A stretch of DNA of 54,523 bases, from NCBI GenBank assembly GCA_011389865.1, contig JAABTL010000019.1:1-54523 (forward strand), in the 5' to 3' direction. The notes beneath the pieces were generated by a model. It ran no database searches. It worked only from the letters and a program-made list of their open reading frames with translations, and was not told the DNA's origin. Origin of the DNA: Trueperaceae bacterium (GTDB taxonomy: Bacteria > Deinococcota > Deinococci > Deinococcales > Trueperaceae). This document shows, in pieces, positions 45,338 to 47,474 of this stretch. Positions within the stretch are counted from its first letter, which is position 1, and every line of letters begins with the position of its first letter. A program made the translations under genes and the position numbers.

Positions 45338-46849
45338 TCAACGCCCGGCCTGCAGCCGCTCCGCGTACGCCAGCGCCTCCTCGCGCGTGCTCACGTCGCC
45401 CAGCGCCCGCGCCTCGGCGATCGCCGCGAGCAGCTCCCCGACACGCGGTCCCGGCGGGAGGCCCAGCGCCGCCATCAGCGCGTGCCCGTCGACGAGCGGC
45501 GCGGGCGGGGGCGGCTCCTCCAGCGCGGCCAACACCAGGCCGACGCGCTCGCGGTAGCGCCGGCGGGCGGCCGCCGAGGCGGCGCGACCGCGCGCGGCCT
45601 CGCGGTCGGCGAGCATGAGGCGCAGCAGATCGGGGAGCAGCGGCCGGAGCCGGTGGGCGAAGCGCCGGGCGCCGCGCTCGTCATCGGGCAGCGGCCGCAT
45701 GTGGGCGGCGACCAGGTCCTGGACGCGCGCGACGGTGGCCCGCGGACGCCGCAGCCGCCGCAGCGCCGCCGCCGCCAGCTCGGCCCCGACCGCGTCGTGG
45801 CCGTGGAAGCGGTCGCGCAACACCAGGCCGTCCTCGGTCACGCCGCCCGGCGTCCGCGTCGGCGCCTTGCCGACGTCGTGCAGCAGCGTGGCCCAGCGCA
45901 GGGCGAGGTCGGCCTCGGGGAAGGCGTCGGCCAGTTGCTGCAGCGCCTCGAGCTGGTGCCGCAGGACGTCGAGGTGGTGCAGGCCGCCCTGGGCGACGCC
46001 GCGGCCGTCGGTCAGCTCGGGGAGGACCGGCGCCAGCAGGCCGAGGTCATCGAGCGCCGCGAAGGCGCGGCCGGCCACAGGCGTGGCGATCGTGTCGTCG
46101 AGCTCGGCGCCCAGGCGCTCCGGCGCGGGGAGGGCGACGGCGTCGTGCGGCGGCGCGCCCGCGCGTGCGGGGTCCGCGGCGAGCGTGCGCGCGAGCTCCT
46201 GCGCCCAGCCGCGCGTGCGCCGCTCGACGCGGAAGCCGAGCTGGGCCGCGAAGCGCACCACCCGCCACGCGCGCAGCGGGTCGGCCCACAGGTTCTCGCG
46301 CGCGACGGCGCGCACCAACCCGCGGCGCAGGTCGGCGAGGCCACGCGTCGGGTCGACGAACTCGCCGGTGTCGGGCCTGAACGCCAGCGCGTTGATCGTG
46401 AGGTCGCGCCGCCGCAGGTCGGCGCCGATCACCGACGGGTCGCGCGGGTCGCCGGGCGGTTCGGGTGCCGCGAGGTCCCACGTGACGGGGGAGGGACGGC
46501 CCGGCGCGGCGGAAGGCGCGGCCGTCGAGGGAGCGGCGGCGTCGTGTTCTCCGGCGGCCAGGTCGTCGTCCCCCGCACCCCACACCACCCGCCAGTAGCC
46601 GCGATCGGGGTCGAGCGCCACCAGCACGCCGCCCGTGGCTTCGGCCAGGGCGCGCGCGGCGGCCTCCGGATCGCGCACCAGCCAGTCGACGTCGCGCGGC
46701 GGCAGCCCCAGGTGCGCGTCGCGCACCGCGCCGCCCACCACCACGGCGCCGGCCAACGGATCGCGGCCGGCGAGACCGGGCGGAGGCGCCGTACACTGCC
46801 GCATGAGCGCGAGCACGGCCGACGGCGAAGGGCGGGCGCGGCGGTCCAC
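45338..46849 (-). CDS. CCA tRNA nucleotidyltransferase / poly(A) polymerase family protein
   Basis: 503 residues, class II nucleotidyltransferase. VVVGGAVRDAHLG and PPRDVDWLV give the GG/DxD catalytic site, DLRRRDLTINALAF the next motif, DPLRAWRVVRFAAQLGF the third, and an HD domain follows (RWATLLHDVGKAP). A low-complexity Ala/Pro/Ser insert (AAPSTAAPSAAPGRP) breaks the head domain. In Deinococcus, CC- and A-adding are split between two enzymes, so it may do only one. GTG start at 46849 has TAGCCT 6 nt upstream. The first 47 bp overlap coaE head to head. Confidence 0.85.
   Translation of the reverse strand: MDRRARPSPSAVLALMRQCTAPPPGLAGRDPLAGAVVVGGAVRDAHLGLPPRDVDWLVRDPEAAARALAEATGGVLVALDPDRGYWRVVWGAGDDDLAAGEHDAAAPSTAAPSAAPGRPSPVTWDLAAPEPPGDPRDPSVIGADLRRRDLTINALAFRPDTGEFVDPTRGLADLRRGLVRAVARENLWADPLRAWRVVRFAAQLGFRVERRTRGWAQELARTLAADPARAGAPPHDAVALPAPERLGAELDDTIATPVAGRAFAALDDLGLLAPVLPELTDGRGVAQGGLHHLDVLRHQLEALQQLADAFPEADLALRWATLLHDVGKAPTRTPGGVTEDGLVLRDRFHGHDAVGAELAAAALRRLRRPRATVARVQDLVAAHMRPLPDDERGARRFAHRLRPLLPDLLRLMLADREAARGRAASAAARRRYRERVGLVLAALEEPPPPAPLVDGHALMAALGLPPGPRVGELLAAIAEARALGDVSTREEALAYAERLQAGR
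46792..46797 (+). promoter_or_regulatory. Leaderless-type -10 (TACACT) of coaE, inside the CCA gene
   Basis: TACACT, 5 nt, ATG at 46803; the site lies in the CCA-type gene's coding sequence on the other strand. Confidence 0.6.
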
Positions 46850-47474
46850 GGCCCCAGGCTACCCGCCCAGGATCGGCCTCACCGGCAGCGTCGGCGCGGG
46901 CAAGTCCAGCGTCGCCCGGCGCCTCGCCGAGCGCGGCGCGCTGGTCATCGACGCGGACGCGCTGGCGCGCCGCGCCACCGAGGACCCCGAGGTGCTCGCC
47001 CGCATCGCGGCGGAGGTCGGCCCCGACCTGGTGGTGGACGGGCGCCTGGACCGCGCCGCCACCGCCCGGCGGGTGTTCGACGACCCCGCGGCGCGGAGTC
47101 GCCTCGAGGCGATCGTGCACCCCTGGGTGCGGCGGGCGGCCGCCGCGATCGAGGCCGCCGCCATGGCGGCGGCCACGCCGCCGCCCCTGGTCGTGCACGA
47201 CGTCCCGCTCCTGTTCGAGAACGGCCTCGAGGCCGGCATGGACGCCACCGTCGTCGTCGCTGCGCCGTTCGCGCAGCGGGCCGCGCGGCTCGCGGCCCGC
47301 TCCGGGATGGACGAGGCGGCCGTCCGCGCGCGTGACGCCGCGCAACTCGACCCCGTCGAGAAGGCGCGGCGGGCGACGTTCGTGATCGACAACGGCGGCG
47401 ACGAGGAGGACCTCGACGCCGCCGTGGCGGAGCTGTGGCCGCGGCTGCTGGGGATGGCGGGCGAACGGCCCTGA
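46803..47474 (+). CDS. coaE: Dephospho-CoA kinase
   Basis: 223 residues. Last step of coenzyme A synthesis. P-loop in IGLTGSVGAGKSSVARRL, LVIDADALARRATEDPEVLA, RSRLEAIVHPWVRRAAAAI, the lid VHDVPLLFENGLEAGMD, and the C-terminal FVIDNGGDEEDLDAAV. Family members begin at the P-loop strand; here 22 polar residues precede it. No ATG, GTG or TTG in frame lies between 46803 and the P-loop, so the early start, inside the opposite gene, is forced. Confidence 0.93.
   Translation: MSASTADGEGRARRSTAPGYPPRIGLTGSVGAGKSSVARRLAERGALVIDADALARRATEDPEVLARIAAEVGPDLVVDGRLDRAATARRVFDDPAARSRLEAIVHPWVRRAAAAIEAAAMAAATPPPLVVHDVPLLFENGLEAGMDATVVVAAPFAQRAARLAARSGMDEAAVRARDAAQLDPVEKARRATFVIDNGGDEEDLDAAVAELWPRLLGMAGERP
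46856..46861 (-). promoter_or_regulatory. Leaderless-type -10 (TAGCCT) of the CCA gene, inside coaE
   Basis: Minus-strand TAGCCT, 6 nt before the GTG at 46849; it lies in coaE codons. Confidence 0.6.

Follow-up and report, generated by a model that had tools for sequence, protein, structure and literature searches.

Putative face-to-face leaderless promoters at the overlapping 5' ends of coaE and cca in Trueperaceae

Leaderless promoters and opposed gene pairs

Leaderless '-10-motif' genes of Deinococcus-Thermus were reportedly described by Zheng in 2011 and by de Groot in 2014. In D. radiodurans, a TANNNT sequence 6–7 bp before ORFs is a leaderless promoter that mutation and FRET tests identified as a true sigma-A -10 element; its bases 1, 2 and 6 are essential, TACACT is its commonest form, and a motif too close to the start disturbs expression (PMC12340547). 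The motif, which lies about 6 nt before the start and needs neither an RBS nor a -35 element, is present in every Deinococcus-Thermus species examined (Zhong 2025, PMC12340547). The coaE–cca locus analysed here belongs to the same phylum, but differs from these known leaderless genes in that the motif is antisense inside the coding sequence of a neighbour and in that two such units face each other. Divergent pairs and Truepera are not mentioned in the text of PMC12340547, and our literature search found no paper on 5'-overlapping leaderless gene pairs, an absence that is weak evidence.

Divergent overlaps account for about 1% of annotated overlapping CDS in prokaryotes, and all 75 of those longer than 60 bp that were checked were judged to be start-site misannotations (Palleja 2008, PMC2478687). 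The coaE–cca overlap is of the same orientation class, but its starts are supported by promoter signals that several species conserve. Excludon loci, known in Listeria and Staphylococcus, act by collision and RNase III, and the 5' parts of their mRNAs are complementary, each being an antisense RNA of the other (PMC7154746). The mRNAs of coaE and cca would have this last property if both start where predicted; excludons, however, usually have a long 5' UTR running over the neighbour, whereas the overlap here is 38–74 nt, no UTR is predicted and the coding sequences themselves overlap. Opposed promoters tens of bp apart are also known from the temperate coliphage 186 (pR/pL) and from IS10 (RNA-IN/RNA-OUT), where ribosomes can be kept off the mRNAs when their 5' ends pair. 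Unlike these, coaE and cca are two housekeeping protein genes with leaderless-type mRNAs and no known regulator.

The overlapping starts of coaE and cca

The window, that is the whole stretch of 54,523 nucleotides that was analysed, lies in contig C10 of a 3.05-Mb assembly (G000) whose named relatives are Trueperaceae MAGs. An ATG on the + strand opens coaE, which reads rightwards and encodes a 223-residue CoaE with a domain match that begins at residue 24 (Pfam PF01121, 3e-44). A GTG on the - strand opens a cca-type gene encoding a 503-residue class II tRNA nucleotidyltransferase with PolyA_pol and HD domain matches. The sequence-only reading of this DNA had proposed a 47-bp 5'-5' overlap of the two genes, with a TAnnnT -10 at 5–6 nt from each start inside the code of the other gene; the coordinates of the overlap are exact, and both hexamers are where that reading had placed them, TACACT 5 nt before ATG 46803 and TAGCCT 6 nt before GTG 46849 (Table 1).

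Table 1. Features of the coaE–cca junction (positions in the window)
Feature	Coordinates	Strand	Remarks
coaE -10 hexamer TACACT	46792..46797	+	Inside cca codons CAG TGT ACG (Gln-Cys-Thr); leaderless-type; TAnACT in relatives
coaE (dephospho-CoA kinase)	46803..47474	+	Leaderless-type ATG; 23-residue N-terminal extension ahead of IGLTG; Pfam/NCBIfam
5'-5' overlap coaE/cca, 47 bp	46803..46849	both	Wobble positions of the two frames coincide
cca-type (possibly CC-adding) tRNA nucleotidyltransferase	45338..46849	-	Leaderless-type GTG; Pfam PolyA_pol/HD; start conserved
cca -10 hexamer TAGCCT	46856..46861 (read 46861-46856)	-	Inside coaE codons (CC)A GGC TA(C); leaderless-type

Both starts behave as expected of a genuine divergent overlap. 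Between 46803 and the P-loop, the coaE frame contains no ATG, GTG or TTG in the window genome, nor in its congeners G001 and G002, so that the coaE start is forced, as had been claimed. For cca, the alternative was the internal ATG at 46804; this codon is not preceded by a TAnnnT, and the distal GTG together with TAGCCT is invariant in five of five congeners. On the + strand (46580-46799), the coaE frame stays open for about 56 codons upstream of its ATG (ORF 46635-47474), as antisense frames that share wobble positions do at this GC content, and automatic annotation could wrongly extend coaE into this region. We rejected this open frame as evidence of coaE coding upstream, since shared wobble positions and GC content predict long antisense ORFs, and for the same sharing of wobble positions the substitution patterns among G000, G001 and G002 within the overlap are uninformative as proof that both frames code. 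The window genome also carries, at positions 1-1731 of contig C29, a second nucleotidyltransferase (L120) with CBS domains, which runs off the contig end and whose best NCBIfam match is an A-adding tRNA nucleotidyltransferase (4e-75, below the cut-off). Given this second, A-adding-like enzyme, the cca gene of the window probably encodes the CC-adding member of a split pair like that of Deinococcus.

Both junction hexamers carry T1, A2 and T6 of the Deinococcus-Thermus leaderless promoter. The leaderless signal was counted, with crude gene calling, in 455 kb of G000 and in 400 kb of the Truepera-like genome G017 (a single contig of 3,260,398 bp). In G000, TAnnnT precedes the candidate starts of 13, 24 and 10 genes at gaps of 5, 6 and 7 nt, against about 3 at other gaps (273 genes), and in G017 the corresponding figures are 15, 40 and 29 against about 8 (284 genes). 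By chance, TAnnnT is found at a gap of 5–7 nt before 17 of the 2679 RTG triplets in the window (0.63%). The genome-wide peak is at 6 nt, and a gap of 5 nt is enriched but at the short end of the range. Compared with the published 6–7 bp, the cca spacing is 6 nt, whereas the coaE spacing of 5 nt is one below the mode; this counts against reading the coaE hexamer as a -10, although the same gap is also enriched in G000. Among ORFs of at least 100 amino acids in the 855 kb of the two genomes, nine head-to-head leaderless pairs were found, of which eight are 33–117 bp apart and only coaE–cca of the window overlaps.

Quite probably, two conserved leaderless promoters that are poor in -35 elements face each other at the junction. 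At TACACT, RNA polymerase would begin the coaE mRNA on the A of ATG 46803 or beside it; at TAGCCT, it would begin the cca mRNA on the G of GTG 46849 or beside it. If 70S ribosomes load on these bare 5' start codons, neither gene needs a leader or a Shine–Dalgarno sequence, and for this reason the starts could lie inside each other. It follows from the geometry that, if both promoters fire, each polymerase must cross the promoter of the other gene, and with transcription start sites at the two RTGs the two mRNAs would be complementary at their 5' ends for 47 nt. Judging from usual footprints, putative start sites 47 nt apart would leave just enough room for two initiation complexes.

Conservation of the junction and selection on the coaE -10

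Most Trueperaceae with readable contigs, and three sister-family genomes, have coaE and cca in a head-to-head arrangement. The sequence-only reading had called for an alignment of the junction in related genomes, and in this alignment the junction is conserved, also beyond the window genus (g1). Two blocks, CGCCGTACACTGCCGCATG and CCCCAGGCTACCCGCCC, are invariant across all five species of the window genus and coincide exactly with the two -10 regions; CCCCAGGCTACCCGCCC is the 17-bp block at the cca -10, identical in the five congeners, and the stretch between the two blocks has received a 27-bp insertion in G003 and G004, in which the overlap is 74 bp. The coaE hexamer, as TAnACT followed by an RTG, is found inside cca in 8 of 12 Trueperaceae genera, the TAnACT-N5-RTG arrangement being present at 19 coaE-linked loci in seven genera and at one cca locus in an eighth. 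On a tree built from both proteins, the TAnACT motif falls at the base of the family, with few losses (4 changes); the coaE promoter would already have been embedded in cca in the Trueperaceae ancestor.

The cca hexamer is less widespread. A TAnnnT lies 6–7 nt before the distal cca start in g1, g12, g13 and g14, with an overlap of 38–74 nt to the coaE RTG, and no clear case at 5–7 nt was found in g8, g16 and g17, which indicates that a fully leaderless mutual arrangement is not universal. Face-to-face leaderless-type promoters are thus documented, as predicted features, in four genera, and eight genera have the buried coaE promoter. The cca hexamer of the window genus imposes a CCA proline codon on coaE in five of five species, whereas only 1 of 53 proline codons further downstream in the same coaE genes is CCA.

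As this region codes on the opposite strand, the coaE hexamer and its RTG might be by-products of the conservation of the cca protein (D-M-x-Q-F-T-P), in which case coaE would use another start or an unseen promoter. In favour of this, an x-F-x-P pattern is conserved in the N-terminal tail of cca, and the Phe is kept in genera without the motif. The coaE hexamer reads antisense to the cca codons CAG-TNT-ANG, and its second base, -11A, is the wobble base of the TNT codon. The -11A is the base of the -10 element that sigma must flip. In 20 genomes of eight genera, this cca codon is TGT (9), TTT (9) or TCT (2) and never ends in C, so that the wobble T is present in 20 of 20, but the residues vary (Phe, Cys or Ser at the second position of the tripeptide; Thr, Lys or Met at the third). 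In the rest of cca, such codons have a third-base T in only 1 of 47 cases in g1, 0 of 96 in g8, 3 of 45 in g12, 0 of 15 in g16 and 0 of 12 in g15, and the product of these chances over the eight genera is about 1e-8 when genera are treated as independent. Full independence of the genera cannot be assumed, but with branches of 0.2–0.5 amino-acid changes per column a synonymous site is unlikely to stay identical by inheritance. In 16 GC-rich genomes, with a GC3 of about 95%, the TNT codon is the sole always-A/T-ending column among 439 codon columns (AT3 of 1.00, against 0.44 for the next column and a mean of 0.064). Among the genera without the motif, six of seven genomes have TTC as the homologous Phe codon, and the Gln is gone. 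Similarly, the coaE-strand start codon is kept as RTG although the cca residue opposite varies between Met, Thr and Ile. Residues thus vary wherever the hexamer leaves them free, and the wobble base is frozen against the codon usage of the gene. Moreover, g1 (G000–G002) and g8 (L043, L044 and L047) have no other ATG, GTG or TTG before the P-loop, so that the RTG is their only available coaE start. The wobble test led us to reject cca protein conservation as the cause of TAnACT, and a by-product origin of the hexamer and RTG is highly improbable. A wobble T that is frozen while the residues vary shows that selection acts on the coaE-strand DNA, at the -10, and not on the cca peptide. The coaE–cca overlap has a molecular mark of its own in this wobble base, frozen at a -10 against a GC3 of about 95%, and a single synonymous change in cca (TTT to TTC) should switch off coaE.

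What the coaE-strand RTG opens

Downstream of the conserved hexamer, the RTG has different fates. It is in the coaE frame in g1 (five genomes), g8 (five genomes) and two of the four g12 genomes, where it would serve coaE directly through a fused N-terminal extension of 17–36 residues; in G003 and G004, coaE also has a later in-frame ATG. Between the two species groups of the window genus, the extension is not conserved as a protein, apart from the parts whose sequence is set by the promoter blocks. In the remaining two g12 genomes, as well as in g13, g16 and g17, the RTG opens an ORF of 21–64 codons whose TGA overlaps the coaE start (ATGA or GTGA), so that coaE might be reached by reinitiation from a short leaderless uORF. 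This ATGA-type overlap with coaE is present in the relatives L006, L045, L008, L011 and L014 and not in the window. Truepera (g14) would use two such steps: the stop of an initial short ORF overlaps a second ATG (ATGA), and the second ORF ends on the coaE GTG (GTGA) in L009, but this last step does not close in L048, and neither g14 locus is directly linked. Since this RTG opens a short uORF and not coaE in these other genera, the coaE promoter appears to be older than the coaE-frame overlap, and the coding overlap of the window would be one result among several of a promoter that has long been part of cca.

Short ORFs that hand ribosomes to a main start by a stop-start overlap are known from ATGA translational coupling (PMC6728339), and in a Corynebacterium bicistronic design the short first ORF is leaderless (PMC10367133), as predicted for the Trueperaceae uORFs. 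The coupling predicted here differs in being natural, conserved and antisense to a neighbouring gene. In a control with other reading starts near the RTG, chance linkage to coaE was 0–54% depending on the genome, or about 0.4 per genus, and linkage in six of seven genera then corresponds to p about 0.01–0.06. After this control, we downgraded the stop-start overlaps as strong proof; that the linkage goes beyond chance is suggestive only. In L014, a 64-codon leaderless-type ORF (1340-1534) is antisense to the cca 5' end and ends in ATGA on coaE; it could be a small protein gene.

A first ORF that is short and is not coaE, as in part of g12 and in g13, g14, g16 and g17, would also be compatible with TAnACT driving an antisense or small-peptide RNA directed against cca. 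However, coaE is co-directional downstream at every readable locus, and coaE of g1 and g8 has no start other than the RTG, so that a promoter unrelated to coaE is very hard to credit.

The coaE and cca promoters may be real and their overlap nevertheless neutral, a gene compaction without regulation that is kept because moving either promoter has a cost. This explanation has a somewhat better than even chance of being correct. The overlap is dispensable, four genera having a non-overlapping compact divergent arrangement instead (loci L015, L017, L018 and L049), its length drifts between 38 and 74 nt, and the predicted RNA fold at either 5' end is unremarkable, being less structured than shuffled sequences (z +1.7 and +1.5) with no sign of a riboswitch-like leader. 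The long retention of the embedded promoter in eight genera, despite compact alternatives nearby, is a weak argument against neutrality. Alternatively, polymerase collision, including sitting-duck interference, and/or pairing of the mRNA 5' ends might balance the two genes and make their expression reciprocal, in line with the mutual exclusion or antisense control that the sequence-only reading had suggested. The two putative start sites are opposed at a distance of 47 nt, both start codons are within the complementary stretch, so that pairing would hide both leaderless starts, and excludons do act by collision and RNase III (PMC7154746). On the other hand, both genes are housekeeping genes, it is not obvious why CoA synthesis and tRNA maturation should exclude each other, and leaderless promoters that lack a good -35 should be weak, which would make collisions rare. 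Mutual regulation is a speculative and rather doubtful proposal. It is unlikely that the strongest version holds, in which an antisense promoter selected throughout the family both dictates Gln-[FCS]-[TKM] in the cca tail and makes coaE and cca reciprocal through collision and masking of both starts.

Whether or not the overlap has regulatory consequences, face-to-face promoters at coaE–cca would illustrate how leaderless initiation lets promoters settle inside neighbouring genes. The arrangements met in the family form a series, from compact divergent through uORF-coupled to fused starts, which may be a path by which leaderless genes gain N-terminal extensions.

Two kinds of compact junction were observed among the relatives. 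In L011 (about 1485-1500) and L017 (about 1474-1486), the junctions are of the ATTATATGA type, with an overlap between the cca -10 (TATAAT, - strand) and the start codon of coaE. Symmetry-driven bidirectional promoters have been described for E. coli, and a compact symmetric bidirectional leaderless-type promoter that resembles them, GGGTAGTATAGTCCC, is found in the sister family f3 (L025 and L030, locus positions about 1531-1549), where the hexamers TAGTAT and TATACT share 5 bp and a GTG start lies 6 nt from each of them.
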